NCBI GenBank assembly: GCA_026984135.1
Contig: JALSSR010000267.1
Span: forward strand, 1-32,049
Direction of reading: 5' to 3'
DNA length: 32,049 nucleotides
DNA from: Bacteroidales bacterium
GTDB taxonomy: Bacteria; Bacteroidota; Bacteroidia; Bacteroidales; JAADJA01
Made by a program: the position numbers and the translations under genes. Of this stretch, positions 5,488-32,049 are shown piece after piece. The number at the start of each line of letters is the position of its first letter. The first letter of the stretch is position 1. The notes under the pieces were generated by a model. That model did not search any database. It was given only the letters and a program-made list of their open reading frames with translations, and had not been told where the DNA came from.

Positions 5488-5586
5488 TGTTTATATAATT
5501 ATAATTTATTTAATCTTTGTTACCTCATGAGAGGCACGTCCGTGCGGCTCTAATTACCTATTTACCGAATACGAATCAGTTATTTA

Positions 5587-5885
5587 AAACCTGCAAGGTT
5601 GCTATCTCACGGGCAACCGAAACCTTTTTAAACCTGCAAGGTTGCTATCTCACGGCCAACCGAAACCTTTTTAAACCTGCAAGGTTGCTATCACACGGCC
5701 AACAGAAACCTTTTTAAACCTGCAAGGTTGCTATCTCACGGGCCAACAGAAACCTTTTTAAACCTGCAAGGTTGCTATCTCACGGCCAACCGAAACCTTT
5801 TTAAACCTGCAAGGTTGCTATCTCACGGCCAACCGAAACCTTTTTAAACCTGCAAGGTTGCTATCTCACGGCCAACAGAAACCTT
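5587..5885. repeat. Tandem array of seven 43-bp units
   Basis: Seven head-to-tail copies start at 5587, 5630, 5673, 5716, 5760, 5803 and 5846. All are 43 bp except copy 4 (44 bp, an extra G) and copy 7, which stops at 40 bp. Each starts AAACCTGCAAGGTTGCTATC and ends GAAACCTTTTT. Differences are confined to a few sites: GGGCAACC, GGCCAACC or GGCCAACA, and TCTCAC or TCACAC. Each unit contains the inverted pair AACCT-gca-AGGTT. The array fills the lepB-PPIase spacer. The rest of the spacer (5488-5586) has only a GC-rich inverted pair GCACG-tc-CGTGC at 5534-5545 and no gene. Confidence 0.95.
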
Positions 5886-5898
5886 ACAGGTTTTGTTG
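5873..5898 (-). terminator. Hairpin directly after the lepB stop codon
   Basis: CAACAGAAACCT (5873-5884) and AGGTTTTGTTG (5888-5898) pair with a 3-nt loop and a one-base bulge. On the minus strand the hairpin begins on the base after the lepB stop codon. It has no U-tract, so it may be an mRNA 3' stabiliser or a degenerate array unit rather than a true terminator. Confidence 0.4.
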
Positions 5899-7416
5899 TC
5901 AGTTGATAAATCTGAACAATTTATTCCACCTTATCTTACCTCCGAAAAGCGATTTTTCGGGATTCAGCGATAGCCACACAAATGATGCTTTGCCGACAAC
6001 ATGATCTTCGGGCACAAAACCCCAGTATCTTGAATCGGCGGAATTATGCCGGTTATCACCCATCATCCAATAATAATTCATTTTGAAAGTATAGGAGTCG
6101 GCTTCCTTTCCGTTAATAAATATCTTTCCGTTATCTATTTTCAAATCGTTGTGCTCATAGACTTTAATAAGTCGTTTATACAAGCTTATATTACTCATAT
6201 CAAGCTTTATTGTCCTTCCTTTTTCAGGAATATATATAGGACCGTAATTATCAATGTTCCACTTATAGGTTGAATCGAATGGAAACAAGTCAGGATTCCA
6301 GACACCGGGTTTTTCAATCACCTTTTCAACTTTTCGTACTGAAGGCCGCTCTTTAAGCAAGGCTGCCATCTCCTTTGTCAAAGGCAATTTATGCATCGGG
6401 TCTCTGCGCCAGTAATTATAATCCTCATCCGATATACCTATTTTATCCCTGAATTTTTTGTTAATTCCTTTGGGCGCATCAACAAAATATTTGAATTGCC
6501 CGTCGGGAGCCAGCGGATTTATCTTGCCGTTAATATAAACAACCTGCTTTTTAATCTCAAGGGTATCTCCGGCAATTGCAATACATCTTTTAATGTAATT
6601 TTCACGCTTGTCAACCGGACGATAAATAATATCGCCGTACCTCCTTTTATTTCTCCATAAATTGTCTCTTCCCACCTCTTTCACTAATCTGTAATAGCTT
6701 ATATTACTCTGAAAGACAGTGGAAACCGTATCTCCTTCCGGATAATTAAAAACTACAACATCATTGTTTTTTATCTTTTCAAATCCCGGAAAACGGTAGT
6801 AAGGAAGTTTTATCCACTCCACAAAAGATTTTGTACTTGTGGAAAGCGGCATGGTATGATGGACAAAGGGAAAGGATAACGGCGTTTCGGGAATACGCGG
6901 GCCGTAAGCTATCTTACTAACAAACAGAAAGTCACCGCGCAAAAGTGTTTTTTCCATCGAAGATGTGGGAATTGTGTAAGCCTCAATAAGAAAAGTGCGT
7001 ATTATTGTTGCGGCAATAACCGCAAAGATAATAGCATCAGTCCATTCCCTGACAACACCCTTTTTAAATTTCTTGCGTTCGGCAACAGGAACAAACTTCT
7101 CCTTATGGGAAAAGCCGAGGTACGGCAGATAGACAAAAGGAAAAAGAACGGCAATACCTTGTTCCCAAAGAGTATATTTTTCAAATCCTTTTGCAAATTC
7201 CACTAACATCAACATTATCATAAACACATTCAAAAAAGGAACCAGAAGAAATATATACCACCAGAGAGGCTTCTCAATAATTTGCAACCACACATACAAG
7301 TTATAAAACGGTATTAGAGTTTTCCAACCCGGTTCACCCGCTTTTTCGAAAATTCCCCACGCAAATACTGCAATTATTGTGAAAGAAACAGGCAATAAAA
7401 AGAAAAGACCCAACAT
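5899..7416 (-). CDS. lepB: Signal peptidase I with N-terminal membrane domain
   Basis: Signal peptidase I removes Sec/Tat signal peptides at the outer face of the inner membrane. The protein is 505 residues, much longer than E. coli LepB, for two reasons. Residues 1-105 form an extra membrane domain of the DUF5684 type (hydrophobic segments about 5-20, 52-72 and 86-100). The catalytic domain also carries a long insert (about 295-430), as usual in Bacteroidota. The anchor helix (about 127-145) is followed by the Ser box YTIPTSSMEKTL, with Ser153 as nucleophile. The general-base Lys276 lies in YIKRCIAIAGD, and the final box GDNRHNSADSR is at 453-463. It appears to be transcribed alone. The 300-bp upstream spacer is described separately. 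Confidence 0.93.
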   Translation of the reverse strand: MLGLFFLLPVSFTIIAVFAWGIFEKAGEPGWKTLIPFYNLYVWLQIIEKPLWWYIFLLVPFLNVFMIMLMLVEFAKGFEKYTLWEQGIAVLFPFVYLPYLGFSHKEKFVPVAERKKFKKGVVREWTDAIIFAVIAATIIRTFLIEAYTIPTSSMEKTLLRGDFLFVSKIAYGPRIPETPLSFPFVHHTMPLSTSTKSFVEWIKLPYYRFPGFEKIKNNDVVVFNYPEGDTVSTVFQSNISYYRLVKEVGRDNLWRNKRRYGDIIYRPVDKRENYIKRCIAIAGDTLEIKKQVVYINGKINPLAPDGQFKYFVDAPKGINKKFRDKIGISDEDYNYWRRDPMHKLPLTKEMAALLKERPSVRKVEKVIEKPGVWNPDLFPFDSTYKWNIDNYGPIYIPEKGRTIKLDMSNISLYKRLIKVYEHNDLKIDNGKIFINGKEADSYTFKMNYYWMMGDNRHNSADSRYWGFVPEDHVVGKASFVWLSLNPEKSLFGGKIRWNKLFRFIN

Positions 7417-20538: not shown

Positions 20539-20596
20539 ATGAAAGGCTATTCCCGCTTGCAGCTTGCCGCATTAGATTGGTCCGGCTTTGCGCGCA

Positions 20597-20608
20597 TTCA
20601 ACGGATGA
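20597..20608. repeat. Single arm of the TTCAACGGATGA repeat family
   Basis: GCGCATTCAACGGATGA here matches the arms of the inverted repeats at 22062-22168, 25836-25912, 26073-26168 and 26751-26801. Only one arm is present, in the short spacer between two convergent genes. It may be a degenerate copy. Confidence 0.6.
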
Positions 20609-20612
20609 TTTA

Positions 20613-21743
20613 CTATTGCTTAATTACTTTTCCAAGATAACAATTATTACCTTCGGTCATTTTTATTATATAAAGTCCGGCAGAAAGATCGGAAATATCA
20701 ACGGTATTGATTTTCGATTCAGTATTTACAATTTGTAACACTTCCTGGCCGCTTATATTGATTACAGATATTGTTTCCTTTGCTGAATTTTTATTATTTA
20801 TTTCAATATTAAACTTTCCGGCACAAGGATTGGGATAAATATTAAGTACCTTGGGTACACTCTTAATTTCATCATCGCCCAATACTCCGTAGAAATAGAC
20901 CTCTTTATCAAGGTTTTCCCAAATGCTGTCGTTCCAATCCATTCTTATCATTTTTGTAACATATCCTTCCTCGTCAAACCATTTCAAAGTTTTAATCTCA
21001 TTACTCCAAGCAGTGTCTTTCCACTTTAACAGAACTTCCTCCCACTCGGTATAATTGTCATTATATGAATACTCTCTCAACCATTCGTTTTGCCATTCAT
21101 TTACATTACGGTTAAAATATTCCTTTTTTATCACATAACCGTTTGTATCATATTTATAAAATGCCGAATCGGATTTAATCCACACAGTGTCGTTTAATAC
21201 ATAAAACAAATAGCCTGAAAAACGATTGTCGCTATTGTAATAATAAATCTTATACGATTTTAAATAAGCCGGATCAAGGTATGCCAAATATCCATACGCT
21301 TTAATTAACTTATATTCGTCATATTCGTATGTATAAATATACTTTATTCCGGGATCGGGAAAATTTATAATATAATTTTCTTGAATCAGACGAAGAGAAT
21401 CGTCATAGTAATATGAAAAATGATAAGTATAACCTCCGATTACATTGGGATTATAACAAATAACACTTTTTAAACTATCAAAATCTTCATAATATTCATA
21501 CATTGTTTTGTCTGTAAGTGAAAAATCACCGTTATAGTTATGGTATCTGAAAATCGAAACAACTTGATCATTATCATTATATTCATACACCCGGTATGAA
21601 TGAAGCCCCCATAAAGAGTTATTCCAATCGTAACTAATTGATGTTAATAAAACTTTTTCACGTTCGGGAACATTTTGACCGTTCGCAACGAAAGATAAAC
21701 CTGAAATTAAAATTATCGAAAGATAAGTTGCAATTGTTTTCAT
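20613..21743 (-). CDS. T9SS-secreted surface protein, function unknown
   Basis: A 376-residue exported protein with signal peptide MKTIATYLSIILISGLSFVA and a C-terminal T9SS type A sorting domain starting LNIYPNPCAGKFNIEI. The middle is very rich in Tyr, Asp, Asn and Trp. It is built from repeated beta-strand units of the form YxYDxxG/Nxx (YEYNDNDQV, YKYDTNGYV, KWFDEEGYV), similar to YD/RHS-type repeats that record text-like question units in Bacteroidota surface proteins. No enzyme motif is seen. The ATG at 21743 was chosen because it starts the signal peptide and lies about 80 bp downstream of a good promoter. The longer frame begins at a TTG inside the -7 box. Confidence 0.85.
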   Translation of the reverse strand: MKTIATYLSIILISGLSFVANGQNVPEREKVLLTSISYDWNNSLWGLHSYRVYEYNDNDQVVSIFRYHNYNGDFSLTDKTMYEYYEDFDSLKSVICYNPNVIGGYTYHFSYYYDDSLRLIQENYIINFPDPGIKYIYTYEYDEYKLIKAYGYLAYLDPAYLKSYKIYYYNSDNRFSGYLFYVLNDTVWIKSDSAFYKYDTNGYVIKKEYFNRNVNEWQNEWLREYSYNDNYTEWEEVLLKWKDTAWSNEIKTLKWFDEEGYVTKMIRMDWNDSIWENLDKEVYFYGVLGDDEIKSVPKVLNIYPNPCAGKFNIEINNKNSAKETISVINISGQEVLQIVNTESKINTVDISDLSAGLYIIKMTEGNNCYLGKVIKQ

Positions 21744-21830: not shown

Positions 21831-21862
21831 CAAATATAGAAATTTGGATTAAAAAAACCAAA
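21831..21862 (-). promoter_or_regulatory. Promoter (-33 TTTG, -7 TATATTTG) of the T9SS gene
   Basis: On the minus strand TTTG (21859-21862) and TATATTTG (21831-21838) are separated by 20 bp, an excellent fit to the Bacteroidota primary-sigma promoter. Transcription would start near 21825 and give a leader of about 80 nt before the ATG at 21743. Confidence 0.75.
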
Positions 21863-21880
21863 TATTTCATATAGAAAAAA

Positions 21881-21910
21881 GTTAACGGTATGATTTTTCA
21901 AGTTAACGGT
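21881..21910 (-). promoter_or_regulatory. LytTR-like operator: two ACCGTTAAC repeats, 21-bp period
   Basis: Minus-strand ACCGTTAAC occurs at 21902-21910 and 21881-21889, separated by exactly 12 bp. It lies 18 bp upstream of the -33 box. The LytTR consensus recalled from the literature is [TA][AC][CA]GTTN[AG][TG] in direct repeat with a 12-13 bp spacer; each copy fits 8 of 9 positions. The surrounding 39 bp (21873-21911) are identical to 26548-26586. Confidence 0.55.
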
Positions 21911-21935
21911 TTTCTGTCTTTCTACTCAAATATGA

Positions 21936-21953: not shown

Positions 21954-22002
21954 CTCTGTCATACACCCTATATGCCTCTATTTCCGAAGGTTGTGGCTTT
22001 TC

Positions 22003-22049
22003 AACCTTTCAGTTCGCAGCCGCACGGGCTTGCCTCGAACTGAAAGGTT
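22003..22049. repeat. Hairpin repeat, copy A (AACCTTTCAGTTC / GAACTGAAAGGTT)
   Basis: A perfect 13-bp inverted repeat (22003-22015 with 22037-22049) around a 21-nt loop containing CGCACGGGCTTGCC. Copies B (26016-26062) and C (26694-26740) have CAATTC/GAATTG in place of CAGTTC/GAACTG, so both arms changed together. An alternative 7-bp hairpin AAGGTTG/CAACCTT (21987-22008) shares the left arm. Confidence 0.8.
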
Positions 22050-22061
22050 TCTGCCCGTATC

Positions 22062-22168
22062 CAACGGATGGCTTGCCTGCGCCGCATTCAACGGGTGACT
22101 TGCCTGCGCTTGGGCCTTGCGTTCAGTCACCCGTTGAATTGCCCGCTTGCGCGCAGTCATCCGTTGAA
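22062..22168. repeat. Nested inverted repeat of the TTCAACGGATGAC family, copy A
   Basis: Inner arms TTCAACGGGTGACT (22087-22100) and AGTCACCCGTTGAA (22125-22138) pair perfectly over 14 bp. Outer arms AACGGATG (22062-22069) and AGTCATCCGTTGAA (22155-22168) pair around them. It ends 15 bp before the stop codon of the next minus-strand gene, so it also lies just downstream of that gene. Confidence 0.8.
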
Positions 22169-22182
22169 TTTTTACCCACGGG

Positions 22183-23124
22183 TTAATTAATTATTACCTT
22201 TTCCGAATGAACACATTCTCCACCGTCCGATTTGATATTGACAATATAGGTACCTGTCGGCAATTCGGCGGTTCTTATCTTTATCTTTCCGTTTCGTATT
22301 TCACGCGTCAGTACCGTACTGCCGTTTATATCTTTCAACGTAACGGACAAATCTGCGCAAGTGCCTTCCGCTTTAACTGTTATTACATCTTTTGAAGGAT
22401 TAGGATATACGGTTACTTTCAATCCGTCGGGCTCGGAATAATTGTCGGTTATTGTCAATTGATTGCAATCAATAGCCGTAAAATTCAGAGTGCCGCCGTT
22501 ATCAACTGTTCCCCGCCAACACTGTCCGTCGGGGGATTTCATAATTATTCCGTGGTCAATGTCACTAATAAAAATATCGCCATTAGTAATTTCCAGTTTT
22601 GCCGTAGGATTATGCGTTCCGATACCCACATTGGCATCCCAAAAGACGAAATCGGAAGCTGTGTGGAAGTTCAAATCCTGACTGCCTCTTGCATCAATTC
22701 TGTTTCCGGCTGTACCGAATTTTACTCTTGCATAGTTCATTGAGCTTCCCGGCTCAAGCAGCAGGTCGGCGTCCTCGTTGTTGTCGGCTTTGATATGTAG
22801 CTTTGCCTGCGGGTCGGTTACATCGCCGATGCCTATTTTGCCGGTTTTATTATCATCAGGAGAATCACTTACGAAAAATGTCGGTTTTGTGCTCCCGAAA
22901 CCAATCAATAGCGACCTGTATTTATTATTTACCAACCTTTCGTTTATTCCACTTCCAACACCTGTTCCTATAACAAAATTTGAATTTGATGATGCGGTTA
23001 CATAATTACCTATTGCACTTCCGTTATTTGATATTGTTGAACCGTCGCAATTTGTGCAATTTTGCGATTGAACAAAATAAAAAAATGATACAATTGCCGT
23101 TAATGCTAATATAATTTTTTTCAT
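22183..23124 (-). CDS. T9SS-secreted protein with tail-fibre/adhesin-like repeats
   Basis: A 313-residue exported protein with signal peptide MKKIILALTAIVSFFYFVQS. The N-terminal part has repetitive beta-strand motifs like those of tail-fibre and trimeric-adhesin heads (FVIGTGVGSGINERL, RSLLIGFGS). It is followed by two copies of the pattern GIG...(D/N)P.AKL.I: GIGDVTDPQAKLHI and GIGTHNPTAKLEI. The C-terminus is a T9SS type A sorting domain (VTVYPNPSKDVITV ... GTYIVNIKS) that includes a cysteine pair. It is probably displayed on the surface; binding partner unknown. The gene starts 26 bp after the 512-residue T9SS gene and is the last of a three-gene operon. Confidence 0.83.
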   Translation of the reverse strand: MKKIILALTAIVSFFYFVQSQNCTNCDGSTISNNGSAIGNYVTASSNSNFVIGTGVGSGINERLVNNKYRSLLIGFGSTKPTFFVSDSPDDNKTGKIGIGDVTDPQAKLHIKADNNEDADLLLEPGSSMNYARVKFGTAGNRIDARGSQDLNFHTASDFVFWDANVGIGTHNPTAKLEITNGDIFISDIDHGIIMKSPDGQCWRGTVDNGGTLNFTAIDCNQLTITDNYSEPDGLKVTVYPNPSKDVITVKAEGTCADLSVTLKDINGSTVLTREIRNGKIKIRTAELPTGTYIVNIKSDGGECVHSEKVIIN

Positions 23125-23150
23125 AATTATTCAGTTTTTGATTGTTAAAA

Positions 23151-24689
23151 TTATTTTTTAATAAACTTTCCGGTTTCCACTACTTTCTCCCGATTAATTA
23201 ATATCCAAACATATTCACCGTTTAAAAGAGATCGGATATCAATACCTGTAATGATTTTGTTAATCGGTACATTCTTAACTGTTTTACCCGATAAATCAAA
23301 AATGAAAAAATTAGCATTATTAATTGCTGTTCGCAAATAAATAATGCCATTTTCAGATGGATTCGGATAGATTATGGCATTTTTAATTTTTGTAGTACTA
23401 ATATCATTTATTCCAACGTATCCGTTATAGTCAAATTTGTATAAAAATCCATCATAATCCAGGTAATTGATATTTTCGTCAAAACGTCTTCCGGTGACTA
23501 TAACTCCTCCGTCATATGTTGCGCACATTCCGTCCACTCTGTAGAAAGCATCTCCACCAAGATATTTTTCCCATATAATATTCAAACTATCATCAAGTTT
23601 GGTTACATAAATCCAATCATCATTATAGTTGAAGTTACCCGGGGGTACTTTGAAAGCTCCGCTAACATATATCTGATTAGGATAAACATAATCAATACAA
23701 TTGTCGGAAGCCGGATATATTTGGATGTTATCCGTAGTATTACCCGTTGTCAACATTTTTTCAACCAATACATTAAATTCTGCATCAAATTTAAGAGCAC
23801 CTATATAGTCTACAATCTGACCATTATAAATATCATACATCCCTGCTGCAACAAATTTATTTCCTGACAATATTTTTGCCGAATAAGGTGCGGAGAACTC
23901 ATATATTGGTGTGCTGTTATGTAAAGGATAAAAGTATGTCATTATACTGTCATAAGTATTAATGTCAATAACCTGACAATTAACATTATTGTTATCATCT
24001 CCAGAAACATATCTTGCATAATGAATCCAAATATTAGATGAATCGGGGGCATAGGTCAATGCATAAACAAGTCCGCTTGAATACCAAGGATATTCTTTAT
24101 AATATAAACTGTCTCCGGTAGAATTAAATCTATATATTGATGTCATTCGATTTCCAGGTCCTCCTGCACCTTTTTCTGCGGCAAAAGCAACAATAAATGT
24201 AGAATCTGATAATTGTAAAAATTTACTGTGAAAAGAATAATGATAATCAAGAGGTGCAAAATGATATGTTCTTTCCCAATTCAATGTGAAATCTTCGTTT
24301 ATGGAAGCCAACCAGAGGAATGAATTAACAGCGGTTGTTCCATTGTTTATCAATTGATTTCCGATTCCATAAATTAAAATATTTCCTGTAACTTTATCAT
24401 AAAGTAATTGGGCATACATTATCAGTGTATCTTGCTTTTTATATGTCCATCTCAATGTATCGCCAGACGGGCTAATTTTATAAATATAATATGATACCGT
24501 CTGAGGCCAAGGTGTTGAAGGATATATCTCGGAGACAATAACGAATGAGTTTCCATTGGGAGATGAAACAACAATATCTGCATAAGTAGAATAAACACCG
24601 TCGAACAATATCTCAAACCCATTTTGCGAATGTGTAGGCTGAAGTAAATAGCCAGGAATTAAAAATAATAAAACTATTACTTTTTTCAT
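23151..24689 (-). CDS. T9SS-secreted beta-propeller-like protein
   Basis: A 512-residue exported protein with a signal peptide (1-21, hydrophobic VIVLLFLIPGYLL). The body is made of repeated beta-strand segments that resemble propeller blades. Examples are FVIVSEIYPS, ILIYGIGNQL, FIVAFAAEKGAGG, IWIHYARYVSGD, FVAAGMYDIYNG and GVIVTGRRFDEN. It has many Asp/Asn/Tyr residues and no catalytic motif I recognise. The C-terminus is a T9SS sorting domain (AIIYPNPSENGIIYL ... LLNGEYVWILI). It lies between the lipoprotein gene (49-bp gap) and the adhesin-like T9SS gene (26-bp gap). Confidence 0.83.
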   Translation of the reverse strand: MKKVIVLLFLIPGYLLQPTHSQNGFEILFDGVYSTYADIVVSSPNGNSFVIVSEIYPSTPWPQTVSYYIYKISPSGDTLRWTYKKQDTLIMYAQLLYDKVTGNILIYGIGNQLINNGTTAVNSFLWLASINEDFTLNWERTYHFAPLDYHYSFHSKFLQLSDSTFIVAFAAEKGAGGPGNRMTSIYRFNSTGDSLYYKEYPWYSSGLVYALTYAPDSSNIWIHYARYVSGDDNNNVNCQVIDINTYDSIMTYFYPLHNSTPIYEFSAPYSAKILSGNKFVAAGMYDIYNGQIVDYIGALKFDAEFNVLVEKMLTTGNTTDNIQIYPASDNCIDYVYPNQIYVSGAFKVPPGNFNYNDDWIYVTKLDDSLNIIWEKYLGGDAFYRVDGMCATYDGGVIVTGRRFDENINYLDYDGFLYKFDYNGYVGINDISTTKIKNAIIYPNPSENGIIYLRTAINNANFFIFDLSGKTVKNVPINKIITGIDIRSLLNGEYVWILINREKVVETGKFIKK

Positions 24690-24738
24690 TTTTTTTGTTT
24701 TTTTAAATTCATTAAACTGCCGTAATAATTTATATAAA

Positions 24739-25785
24739 TTATTCGCCTATTGGTGATGGAATTGTATCGGGAATAGGCCCACAGTCCGTTAACCGCTTGC
24801 CAATTATTACCGTCAATTTATGCCATATAACCTCACTTCCTGAATTTTTGCCATCAATATAATCTTTTACTTTAAATTCTTTGAACTTTTTCCCCTGATG
24901 TTCCGTAATAAAATCTGAAACTATCTGAGTATATGAGTTATCATAAAATGGCATTTCAATATTTGCAGAAATACATTTAACACTATCAACCCAGGCATTT
25001 GGTGTGTTTTGCTCATTGGCATAAAATACAAGATAATCAAGATAATTATCTTCGGGAGTTTCATCAGCAGGATTTATATAATCATCTACTATTTCTTGCT
25101 TGTCAATTTCTTTTGTATCAATTAAATAGAAAAGGTAAGTGCATCCTTCTGGGGGATATTCTTTGAACTTTTTACTTACTCTTGTTTGTAATTGCTGCGC
25201 AGCATCGCCTTCAAAAATATTTGAATTATCACAAGTGCCGGCATTTCCTCCGTACCACCAATCGTGTGGTATATCATCCGATCCTTCACCGCCTTTTGTT
25301 GCAGATGTAACTTCAAGTTTTCTGTCTTCACCGTTTCCTGTAATTTTTAAATCAACAGCAGACAAATGTTTGTCAGACAACTGTATTTCATTGTATTGAC
25401 CTGCAACCGTCTGTACTATTTCATTAAGTTTACTTGCTATTTGACCGGAATTGAGAATCTCATCATCCGGAAAATCAATAACTGATGTTTTTATCTCTAT
25501 TTTACCATCTGGCAAATTATTATAACCATAAACAAAATTCATTGCAGCTTCCATATAAAAAACGGCACTATCTGCACTCATTTGCTCCCCATCTTTGTAT
25601 TCAGGATTATTCCTAACAAAATCCATCCTCTGTTTAAATTTCAAAACCTTAGTGAAAAATCCGTCATCGTTATTACTATAAAACTTTTCAGGAACATTTT
25701 TGGTTTCGTTATTCTCTTTGGTGCAGGCAAAAAATATTATTACCGCACTCATTATAAAAACACTTAATACTATTATTTTTTTCAT
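24739..25785 (-). CDS. Hypothetical lipoprotein
   Basis: A 348-residue protein with a lipoprotein signal: hydrophobic stretch then lipobox IFFAC with Cys21, followed by charged residues, suggesting outer-membrane anchoring. A region around residues 60-165 (QMSADSAVFYMEAAMNFVYG, VIDFPDDEILNSGQIASKLN) recurs in Bacteroidota lipoproteins of unknown role. Around residue 170-185 it has IPHDWWYGGNAGTCDN. Cysteines at about 184, 216, 269 and 338 could form disulfides. No enzyme motif is recognised. It is the first gene of the minus-strand run leading to the two T9SS proteins. The sequence before its ATG has no TAnnTTTG box but does contain inverted repeat copy B1. Confidence 0.7.
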   Translation of the reverse strand: MKKIIVLSVFIMSAVIIFFACTKENNETKNVPEKFYSNNDDGFFTKVLKFKQRMDFVRNNPEYKDGEQMSADSAVFYMEAAMNFVYGYNNLPDGKIEIKTSVIDFPDDEILNSGQIASKLNEIVQTVAGQYNEIQLSDKHLSAVDLKITGNGEDRKLEVTSATKGGEGSDDIPHDWWYGGNAGTCDNSNIFEGDAAQQLQTRVSKKFKEYPPEGCTYLFYLIDTKEIDKQEIVDDYINPADETPEDNYLDYLVFYANEQNTPNAWVDSVKCISANIEMPFYDNSYTQIVSDFITEHQGKKFKEFKVKDYIDGKNSGSEVIWHKLTVIIGKRLTDCGPIPDTIPSPIGE

Positions 25786-25835
25786 TTTTTTTCAATTTTA
25801 ATTCGGTTACTTAATAATATATATAGCTTCCCGCA

Positions 25836-25912
25836 TCAACGGATGGCTTGCCTTCGCCGCATTCAACGGATGACTTGCTTTCGCTTGGGTCTGCGCACAG
25901 TCACCCGTTGAA
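25836..25912. repeat. Inverted repeat of the TTCAACGGATGAC family, copy B1
   Basis: TTCAACGGATGACT (25862-25875) and AGTCACCCGTTGAA (25899-25912) pair over 14 bp with one mismatch (A against C). A further left arm TCAACGGATGG is at 25836-25846, but its outer partner is missing. It lies 50-130 bp upstream of the lipoprotein ATG. Confidence 0.7.
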
Positions 25913-26015
25913 TTGCCAATCTATCCCAACCATCGTCCTATTGTCTTCATTTCTTCTTTTTCCTTATAGCGTAGGTCTGAAAATATCTCTCCTATTCGGA
26001 TGATTCGTTGTTTTC

Positions 26016-26062
26016 AACCTTTCAATTCCCTGACGCACGGGCTTGCCTCGAATTGAAAGGTT
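26016..26062. repeat. Hairpin repeat, copy B (AACCTTTCAATTC / GAATTGAAAGGTT)
   Basis: Perfect 13-bp inverted repeat (26016-26028 with 26050-26062) around the loop CCTGACGCACGGGCTTGCCTC. A short competing hairpin GTTG-tttt-CAAC is at 26007-26018. Confidence 0.8.
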
Positions 26063-26072
26063 TCGGCGCTCA

Positions 26073-26168
26073 TTCAACGGATGCCCATTCAGCGGATGAC
26101 TTGCCATTGCTTAGGCCTTGCGCGCAGTCATCCGTTGAATTGCCGACCTTGCGCAGTCATCCGTTGAA
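26073..26168. repeat. Nested inverted repeat of the TTCAACGGATGAC family, copy B2
   Basis: Inner arms TTCAGCGGATGACT (26088-26101) and AGTCATCCGTTGAA (26126-26139), outer arms TTCAACGGATG (26073-26083) and AGTCATCCGTTGAA (26155-26168). It follows hairpin copy B at 11 bp, the same order as in copies A and C. Confidence 0.8.
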
Positions 26169-26176
26169 GTGCCAGC

Positions 26177-26446
26177 CTATGTCAAAACAAATTCAGTCTG
26201 AAAAGCCAAATTTCCGGTTTGCTTTTCGGTAAAAGAACGCATTTTATTAAATAGTATATTTTTCTCCGGTAATTTCCGGAACTGTTTTTTAACGAAACAT
26301 AAGATGTTAATTGACAGACCCGTAACCGCCTGATAGATAGATAGATAGCGGCGTAACTCATTGATGCACAACATATTATACACACCGGTTTTTATCTTTC
26401 GCAAAAGGTTTGAAACGGCTATCCTATTTTCAATATTTTTCGGCAT
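26177..26446 (-). CDS. Hypothetical 89-residue protein or leader ORF
   Basis: The ATG at 26446 lies 60 bp downstream of a well-formed -7 box, so this frame is probably transcribed. The product is basic (many Lys and Arg), with no signal peptide; it contains NRIAVSNLLRKIKTG and NELRRYLSIYQAVTG. I recognise no family. A GATA tetranucleotide repeated four times (26332-26347) lies within it. It may be a small protein, a decayed gene, or simply part of the leader of the downstream lipoprotein/T9SS operon. Confidence 0.35.
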   Translation of the reverse strand: MPKNIENRIAVSNLLRKIKTGVYNMLCINELRRYLSIYQAVTGLSINILCFVKKQFRKLPEKNILFNKMRSFTEKQTGNLAFQTEFVLT

Positions 26447-26506: not shown

Positions 26507-26536
26507 CAAATATAAGAATAAAAATTGAAAAGTCAA
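26507..26536 (-). promoter_or_regulatory. Promoter (TTG / TATATTTG) upstream of 26446
   Basis: On the minus strand TTG (26534-26536) and TATATTTG (26507-26514) are 19 bp apart. The layout matches the promoter at 21831-21862, including the distance to the shared 39-bp block. Confidence 0.65.
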
Positions 26537-26555: not shown

Positions 26556-26585
26556 GTTAACGGTATGATTTTTCAAGTTAACGGT
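26556..26585 (-). promoter_or_regulatory. LytTR-like operator, second copy
   Basis: Minus-strand ACCGTTAAC at 26577-26585 and 26556-26564 with a 12-bp spacer, 19 bp upstream of the -33 TTG. The block 26548-26586 is identical over 39 bp to 21873-21911, while the flanks and leaders differ. Confidence 0.55.
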
Positions 26586-26633: not shown

Positions 26634-26740
26634 GTGTGTCCGATTCCCGAATGGTTGAGATATAAAAGGGCTTTACGTATTTAACGATTTCTCAACCTTT
26701 CAATTCCCGGACACACGGGCTCTCATCGAATTGAAAGGTT
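26634..26740. repeat. Hairpin repeat, copy C, with a competing larger inverted repeat
   Basis: AACCTTTCAATTC (26694-26706) pairs with GAATTGAAAGGTT (26728-26740), as in copies A and B. Its left arm is also part of a second inverted repeat: GTGTGTCCG...GGTTGAGA (26634-26660) against TCTCAACC...CGGACACAC (26690-26716). Both arms are 27 nt with a central 10-nt mismatch. The two foldings cannot form together. Upstream (26587-26633) a 7-bp pair TTCTTCG/CGAAGAA (26595-26628) is also present. Confidence 0.7.
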
Positions 26741-26750
26741 TCGGTGCGCA

Positions 26751-26801
26751 TTCAACGGGTGGCTTGCCTTCGCTTGGGCCTGCGCGCAGTCATCCGTTGA
26801 A
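26751..26801. repeat. Inverted repeat of the TTCAACGGATGAC family, copy C
   Basis: TTCAACGGGTGG (26751-26762) and AGTCATCCGTTGAA (26788-26801) pair imperfectly around a loop CTTGCCTTCGCTTGGGCC similar to the other copies. It ends 33 bp beyond the kdsA stop codon. Confidence 0.75.
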
Positions 26802-26834
26802 TGGCCATCGTTTAGGCCTGCAATGGCGGTTAGC

Positions 26835-30457: not shown

Positions 30458-31156
30458 TCATTGATTATTATCCGTTAAACTATCCAACAACCCGTACAGG
30501 AAGGAATTATTTTCGGAAATATTGTTTATGTTTTCCAGTATTTCTTTTTCGGATTGTATGAAGGGAGAATCTTCTTCCAGTTCCCGTTTACATTCGTTAA
30601 CTAAAGTTTGTATCATCTTTTCGGTCATTTCCGGATGAAATTGCAGTGCTATTACATCCTCTTTGAAGAAGAAACCTTGATTTGAAGTGGCTTCGGAATG
30701 TCCTATCTTTACAGCCCCTTCAGGAAGTTTAAAAGTGTCGCCGTGCCAGTGAAATGTGTTGATTTTTTCAGGCAGATTTACTGGAAGGTTAGCTTTATTA
30801 TCAGGGAAAGTAACTTCGTGCCATCCTATCTCTTTATATTCATTCTTTGTGACTTCGCTACCCAAAGCGTTGGCAATCAGTTGTGCTCCGAGACATATTC
30901 CTATAACCTTTTTACCTGAATCTATTGACCTTTTGATAAACATTTTTTCATCCGGCAACCAGTCAAACTTATCTTCATCATTTACGCTCATAGGTCCGCC
31001 CATTATCACCAGCATATCAAAATCCTTAATATCAGGCAGTTGAGCTTTCTCATAAAACCGTGTAAAGCTTTTTTCATATCCGTTATTGTCGCACCAGATT
31101 ACAATTGCACCCGGGTCTTCGTACGGAACGTGTATAAAAAAATGTACTCTCTTCAT
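30458..31156 (-). CDS. Class I glutamine amidotransferase-like protein
   Basis: A 232-residue stand-alone class I (triad) amidotransferase, related to the glutaminase domain of GMP synthase and to YfeJ-type proteins. Catalytic Cys88 is in GICLGAQLIA, with His174 and Glu176 in LQFHPEM, so the triad is complete. MGGPMSVND (52-60) forms the oxyanion-side loop. No synthetase partner domain is present. Stand-alone members can act on gamma-glutamyl compounds, but the substrate is unknown here. It is 20 bp upstream of the YgbA-family gene; a 9-bp repeat array lies just before its start. Confidence 0.88.
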   Translation of the reverse strand: MKRVHFFIHVPYEDPGAIVIWCDNNGYEKSFTRFYEKAQLPDIKDFDMLVIMGGPMSVNDEDKFDWLPDEKMFIKRSIDSGKKVIGICLGAQLIANALGSEVTKNEYKEIGWHEVTFPDNKANLPVNLPEKINTFHWHGDTFKLPEGAVKIGHSEATSNQGFFFKEDVIALQFHPEMTEKMIQTLVNECKRELEEDSPFIQSEKEILENINNISENNSFLYGLLDSLTDNNQ

Positions 31157-31171
31157 ATAAATCTTTTCTGT

Positions 31172-31270
31172 AATCCTATCAATCCTATCAATCCAATCAA
31201 TCCAATCAATCCAATCAATCCAATCAATCCTATCAATCCCTTCAATCTCTTCAATCTCATCAATCTCATC
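31172..31270. repeat. Array of eleven 9-bp repeats (AATCCWATC)
   Basis: Eleven perfect-length 9-bp units: AATCCTATC, AATCCAATC and, at the right end, variants AATCCCTTC and AATCTCATC. The array fills 99 of the 123 bp between the hemerythrin/PAS gene and the amidotransferase start. Variation increases toward the right end, and the central four units are identical. It could vary in copy number and would change the spacing upstream of the amidotransferase gene. Confidence 0.95.
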
Positions 31271-31279
31271 AACCCTCCA

Positions 31280-32049
31280 CTACATATCCAACAATCTTTT
31301 TTCCCCTTTCAACTTTCTTATTTCGGAAACATCCTGACTAACCTCTATAACACCTTTATAATTACCTTGTTCATCTCTAACGGCAAAATATTGAATAAGC
31401 AGAAATTTATCTTTAAAGCTGATCCAGAACGATTCCGCATCTTTTTTCCCCGATTTGAAAGAGTCAACGATTTCATTAACAATATGAACACTTTCGTGGG
31501 GATGGCAATTTTGTACTTTTCGTCCGATAATTGCTTTTGAGCGACCGAAAATCCTGTCTTTCGGAGTGGAGAAATATTTGACTTCATCATTTTCATCAAC
31601 AAAAGTGATATCCACCGGCAGATGATTAAAAATACGAATAATTTCGGCGGGAGAGAGTTTTCCTGTTTCCAGATTAACAAGGTTACTATCTGCTTGGGAT
31701 TTTTGCGCTTCTTTTTGTTTTACGGTTTTAGGAAGTGATTCCGGAGGCTCGATAAAAGCAAATCCCTCCTCAGCGCTTTGTACCAGCATTTCATCCCAAT
31801 CCGTTTTTTTTATTGCTCTTGCAGCGACAGGGTAGAGGATATATTCTTCTCTGAAGATAACCGGAAGAACCGAATAGTAGAGTTTGCCTATATTCATATT
31901 AAAAACATTTATCAAGGGCTCCTCCTTTTCAATGTTTTCAAGCAATATTTTAATACTTTCCCTCGCATCGTCGTGCATTGACCACATAACACCGACGCAG
32001 CGATAATCCGGAAAATATTTTTCAATATACGGGAAGAGAATGTTTTCTT
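31280..32049 (-). CDS. Hemerythrin/PAS (DUF438-type) protein, C-terminal part, cut by window edge
   Basis: The frame is open past the right edge; an internal ATG at 31987 is not the true start. The first visible residues read ENILFPYIEKY, then MWSMHDDARESIK, and later FREEYILYPVAARAI. These are the paired E-x2-L-x-P and His motifs of a hemerythrin-like di-iron domain. A PAS domain follows (from about FNHLPVDITFVDENDEVKYF to YKGVIEVSQDVSEIRKL), of the DUF438-associated kind. Related proteins are redox- or gas-sensing, and a nitric oxide or oxygen role is an inference. It is the upstream gene of the amidotransferase/YgbA/NTF2-like run. Confidence 0.8.
   Translation of the reverse strand, partial: ENILFPYIEKYFPDYRCVGVMWSMHDDARESIKILLENIEKEEPLINVFNMNIGKLYYSVLPVIFREEYILYPVAARAIKKTDWDEMLVQSAEEGFAFIEPPESLPKTVKQKEAQKSQADSNLVNLETGKLSPAEIIRIFNHLPVDITFVDENDEVKYFSTPKDRIFGRSKAIIGRKVQNCHPHESVHIVNEIVDSFKSGKKDAESFWISFKDKFLLIQYFAVRDEQGNYKGVIEVSQDVSEIRKLKGEKRLLDM

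Follow-up and report, generated by a model that had tools for sequence, protein, structure and literature searches.

A direct repeat and promoter upstream of a gene with a type IX sorting domain

Little is known of what regulates the cargo of the type IX secretion system (T9SS), in contrast to the secretion machine itself. The window analysed here, a stretch of 32,049 nucleotides of Bacteroidales DNA, raises this question through a short direct repeat at 21873-21911 in front of a gene for a protein with a T9SS sorting domain: is this block an operator, and if so, for what kind of regulator? Based on comparisons within this genome and with its relatives, we consider the block very probably the operator of a LytTR-type response regulator governing a regulon of T9SS cargo. 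As such, the kind of system would be a known one, and the new element, which the comparisons support, would be a LytTR regulon of T9SS cargo.

Read on the minus strand from 21910 down to 21881, the sequence is ACCGTTAAC TTGAAAAATCAT ACCGTTAAC, with the promoter-distal half-site at 21902-21910 and the promoter-proximal one at 21881-21889; our re-reading agrees with the original prediction on the twofold 9-mer, the 12-bp spacer and the period of 21 bp. The Bacteroidota-type promoter that had been placed downstream of the repeat (21881-21910) is likewise present on the minus strand at 21831-21862, its TTTG (21862-21859) beginning 18 bp past the repeat and being followed after 20 bp by TATATTTG at 21838-21831. 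Each half-site fits the LytTR consensus, quoted in the prediction as [TA][AC][CA]GTTN[AG][TG], in eight of nine positions, as had been claimed. The proposed 9-bp half-site holds as a core, but the full half-site is longer and reads ACCG(W)(W)AACTGATTT. A T at positions +1, +4 and +5 past the proximal half-site, for which the searches described below did not ask, is found in 51-54 of 54 sites, and these conserved T's would extend the half-site to ACCGTTAACTnnTTT, the extended half-sites of the window block then lying at about 21896-21910 and about 21875-21889. At the orthologous regulator loci of relatives, the half-site reads ACCGWWAACTGATTT. The target gene (20613-21743, minus strand) has its start codon about 138 bp past the repeat and encodes a protein of 376 aa, whose N-terminus resembles a signal peptide and which ends in a T9SS sorting domain (Pfam PF18962, E 2e-15); no match to this protein at E<=1e-25 was found in 16 congeners.

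An identical block had been reported 4.7 kb away, and it is indeed found on the minus strand at 26556-26585 (distal half-site ACCGTTAAC at 26577-26585, proximal half-site ACCGTTAAC at 26556-26564), with an identity of exactly 39 bp and with flanks as dissimilar as described, only 22/60 and 28/60 positions agreeing between the blocks in an ungapped comparison. The promoter of this second site (26507-26536, minus strand) consists of TTGAC at 26536-26532 and TATATTTG at 26514-26507, its -7 box lying 41 bp past the repeat. The likely target is an operon on the minus strand at 22183-26446, inferred from gene order, with a small ORF (26177-26446), a lipoprotein-like gene (24739-25785) and two genes for proteins with T9SS tails, one a marginal Pfam match below the cut-off (23151-24689) and the other with a Por_Secre_tail above it (22183-23124). 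The identity had been taken to suggest selection on the block itself, for which it is weak evidence, as the 12-bp spacer varies at other sites; selection on every base was rejected on this ground and because the 26556 locus and a third copy of the block, at C253:616, are segmental duplicates. Since the C253:616 locus is such a duplicate, the spacer common to these blocks is probably due to recent shared ancestry, and descent probably also accounts for most of the identity between the window blocks. The 21881 locus has in common with the C253 and 26556 loci just the block and nearby REP-like elements.

The window also contains other repeats. REP-like intergenic repeats with GCAGTCATCCGTTGAATTGCC and its inverse occupy 20584-20614, 22062-22173, 25837-26173 and 26726-26806, and 35 near copies exist genome-wide (reversed control, 0). 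In addition, an intergenic repeat of ~100 bp with inverted CAACCTTTCAATTC-like arms occurs three times (21970-22070, 25983-26083 and 26661-26761), a tandem array at 5540-5928 holds seven copies of a unit of 43-44 bp, and a 9-bp tandem repeat of the AATCCAATC type (31154-31293) lies immediately before the gene 30458-31156 on the minus strand.

Distribution of the sites, their promoters and their targets

The exact pair ACCGTTAAC-N12-ACCGTTAAC occurs six times in the 4.17-Mb genome, with ~1e-4 occurrences expected under uniform composition, and the genome-wide search for such pairs that had been suggested with the prediction yielded about 13 sites, most of them near promoters in register. Nine are exact matches to ACCGTTNNC-N12-ACCGTTNNC, and a further four with one or two mismatches (C307:10708, C243:3457, C251:468 and C58:11913) were kept on promoter and context, three other one-mismatch matches (C26, C66 and C304) being left out, which makes 13 a partly curated figure. 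The reversed-pattern control for the 32-base core gave 0 matches; only the tier with 0-1 mismatches exceeds the control, the two-mismatch pattern giving 92 matches in this genome versus 96 for the control and thus mostly background. Among these sites the arms are conserved and the spacers varied, with one spacer common only to C253 and both window sites and another to C152 and C307:14500; the 12-bp spacing was a search condition outside the window, so that spacer length there is not independent. No own-genome site falls within an ORF of at least 120 aa.

The promoters stand in a preferred register to the repeat. In other genomes, TAnnTTT(G/A) starts 31-33 bp past the repeat at 20 of the 29 sites found by motif alone, a fairer figure than the pooled 41 'other' sites, which include public-genome loci chosen after their flanks had been seen; several of the remaining nine have a -7 box one base off consensus, and the flanks upstream of the sites give a background of about 0.002 matches per bp and site. 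The own genome has a -7 box at 31-33 bp in 7/13 sites and at 41-42 bp in three more, namely both window sites and C253, with three sites showing no clear -7 box in register; the distance of 42 bp at the 21881 site is one helical turn beyond the usual one. TTG most often lies 10 bp past the repeat, and 19 bp at the window sites.

Behind these promoters, a C-terminal Por_Secre_tail or CHU_C domain, by which T9SS cargo was recognized, is present in the products of 20613-21743, of 22183-23124 and of most other targets. A Por_Secre_tail above the cut-off is found in genes or operons after the C93:37393, C152, C209, C253, C307:10708 and C243 sites, and operons related to 22183-26446 carry the site at C253:616, at C93:37393 and in genome G067. 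The tail after C307:14500 is marginal and below the cut-off, the stretch downstream of the C251 site leaves the contig, and the C231 site lies at a contig edge. T9SS tails follow most own sites; genome-wide there are at least 150 of these domains, found in a few percent of the genes. Eight of ten tested targets in other genomes have a T9SS tail as well (seven Por_Secre_tail, one CHU_C alone), the remaining two showing SprB repeats and an incomplete C-terminus.

At one site, C93:6859 (G000 C93 about 6859-7020; L068:3860-4019), operator and promoter have no gene behind them, and a terminator-like hairpin with a T run follows about 90-110 bases on. This geneless arrangement is syntenic in a congener near tgt (G067 C109:17318; L083:1501-1655), and the putative transcript is a candidate for a LytTR-controlled small RNA, for which an Rfam search gave no credible family.

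Congener G067 carries nine sites and a few occur in four other families, with the reversed-pattern control near zero. Sites in other species often precede homologous genes, as homologues of the C209, C243, C307 and C152 targets and of the small C58 protein bear the site there, some of them in other families. The same sites as in G067 are seen in a public record labelled Chlorobiota bacterium M_MetaBat.92 (L125, L152), and congener G151 matches one labelled Bacteroidales; the Chlorobiota label may be misassigned. Matches in GTDB from Kamptonema, Acidobacteria, Prevotella and others are mostly promoterless tandem CGTTAAC arrays, a different thing, and were discarded.

A receiver-LytTR protein as best candidate regulator

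The lack of any LytTR gene had been named as grounds for giving up the prediction; 17 such genes are present. Two of them, C58 and C251, have a site a short way downstream, and both neighbour a gene for a His_kinase protein. The C58 protein P0001, which combines a receiver domain (PF00072, E 6.5e-21) with a LytTR domain (PF04397, E 6.3e-18), adjoins a propeller histidine kinase (His_kinase PF06580), and the site carried by its own next gene leads to the small membrane-like protein that follows the regulator and to a TonB-plug protein. The C58 protein is the best candidate for the regulator; besides this next gene, the orthologous loci in about 18 other families of the order carry the site. Its orthologues have the motif downstream and the -7 box in register in 15/15 assessable loci of the genus (16 loci, one cut by a contig end) and in 19/19 loci outside it, from about 18 families, these genus and family comparisons being phylogenetically non-independent. 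In all 34/34 assessable loci the motif lies 4-402 bp downstream and the -7 box at +31 to +34; for a few of the most distant orthologues (L267, L269), which score barely above shuffled sequence, it is the promoter register that carries the assignment. The sites at regulator loci often read ACCGAAAAC or ACCGTAAAC, off the GTT core of the quoted consensus, and these versions fit it more poorly than the window half-sites do. All six motif-bearing genomes among the 149 in the order belong to the 16 with a C58-regulator orthologue at about E<=1e-90; the chance of this overlap would be about 6e-7 if the genomes were independent, which they are not, and the cut-off was set afterwards and relatedness inflates the result. 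Together, the 34 regulator-linked loci, the operator geometry and the sorting tails support the proposal that T9SS cargo is under LytTR control.

Paralogues at 43-50% identity mostly lack the motif, the exceptions being C251 and a few ACCGAATAT variants that have no promoter in register. The C251 regulator is 48% identical to that of C58, and 255 bp downstream of it stands a site, ACCGTTCCC-N12-ACCGATAAC, whose promoter is in register. Scanning of the other own LytTR genes for direct repeats of their own gave a few weak candidates. Behind the paralogous LytTR genes at L244, L245 and L247 comes a variant repeat, for example ACCGAATAT-GGATTT-N6-ACCGTTTAT, which may be the operator of a different LytTR subfamily. 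With 17 LytTR proteins, the acting one could differ by target, and both the C251 site and the ACCGAATAT-type repeats are what one would expect if a different LytTR regulator, such as the C251 paralogue, or several with overlapping specificity acted on the operator; we regard this as unlikely, although deserving serious consideration, as a consistent motif across families is seen only in the C58 lineage and the motif-bearing genomes coincide with that lineage.

Discussion

In the model that we favour, with a receiver-LytTR response regulator as the acting protein, the half-sites ACCG(T/A)(T/A)AACTGATTT, or shorter variants of it, stand head to tail at a distance of 21 bp. A regulator dimer would place one LytTR domain on each of them, both on one face of the DNA and just upstream of the -33 element. 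The bound dimer would then assist RNA polymerase in initiating at a TTG-N19/20-TAnnTTTG promoter, and the regulon here would comprise mostly exported proteins that bear T9SS sorting tails, with the window gene and the window operon among its members. In this scheme, we infer DNA binding, activation and the histidine kinase as the source of the input signal. The sequence would fit either direction of regulation, and the bound regulator might repress rather than activate; no result speaks for this, and we find it improbable, given that the repeat is clear of the core promoter and lies upstream of -33, in the place bound by LytTR activators, among them AgrA (PMC4227749) and HdrR. A non-LytTR factor that happens to regulate the gene beside the regulator might also account for a half-site that exceeds the classical 9-mer and tolerates AA for TT, but the spacing, the promoter distance and the ACCG core all match known LytTR operators and the adjacency to a LytTR gene is conserved, which makes such a factor quite doubtful. 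That the block is a mobile or dispersed repeat travelling with the REP-like elements, whose 35 copies include some close to the C253 block and to each block of the window, is hardly credible despite the duplication of the C253 and 26556 loci, since the spacers differ, most of the 13 sites lack the 39-bp block, sites occur at homologous genes in other families and, unlike in the promoterless dispersed repeat that had been named as a counter-case, positions are fixed relative to promoters.

Beyond the proposed LytTR regulon itself, we give even chances to an ancestral Bacteroidales two-component LytTR system as a layer of control apart from PorXY-SigP, one that would act directly on a conserved set of T9SS cargo genes, on an outer-membrane receptor-like gene and on a small noncoding RNA, by way of the extended half-site ACCGWWAACTGATTT and a strict promoter geometry. 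With operator, promoter register and candidate regulator at hand, the circuit is directly testable, and target genes in many uncultured Bacteroidales could be predicted from the motif.

Comparison with known systems

The literature searched has little to say about LytTR regulation in Bacteroidota, and a search mostly outside subscription journals found no paper in which T9SS cargo is under LytTR control. In published LytTR systems the spacers measure 12 bp and the operators are strongly biased towards a position 10 bp upstream of -35; LRS-like operons of Bacteroides carry ACCG-type repeats, and the operator of B. thetaiotaomicron reads TCCGGTATTCA-11bp-ACCGGAAATCA, 11 bp upstream of TGTA-19-TATCTTTG (PMC6193735). 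The features of such operators are found here as well, namely repeats of ~9 bp that are 12 (11-13) bp apart, a position just upstream of -35/-33 and a linked LytTR gene. The LytTR Regulatory System (LRS) of Streptococcus mutans and relatives (HdrR, BrsR) and the LRS-like system of Bacteroides are alike in 9-bp direct repeats, spacing and promoter distance; those LRS regulators pair with a membrane protein, whereas here a receiver-LytTR protein stands beside a histidine kinase and T9SS cargo makes up the targets. The C58 regulator falls outside the LRS in the strict sense, in which an inhibitory membrane protein takes the place of the histidine kinase.

AgrA of Staphylococcus aureus, whose repeats are centred near -60 (PMC4227749), is likewise a receiver and LytTR response regulator with two direct repeats upstream of the promoter, and its FFRCHNS motif is resembled by FLRIHKS in the C58 regulator. 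The centre of the repeat here lies near -58 usually and near -68 in the window, as estimated from the usual placement of the -7 box. AgrA differs in belonging to another phylum and in its kinase, promoter type and targets, and the half-site here is ACCGWWAACTGATTT.

Two-component control of T9SS in Porphyromonas gingivalis is exerted by PorX/PorY-SigP (PMC4800418, PMC8265659). The proposed system resembles it as two-component control of T9SS in Bacteroidales. PorX, however, belongs not to the LytTR proteins but is a CheY-PglZ protein that works together with an ECF sigma factor. Its targets are the genes of the secretion machine, whereas the targets here would be cargo genes.
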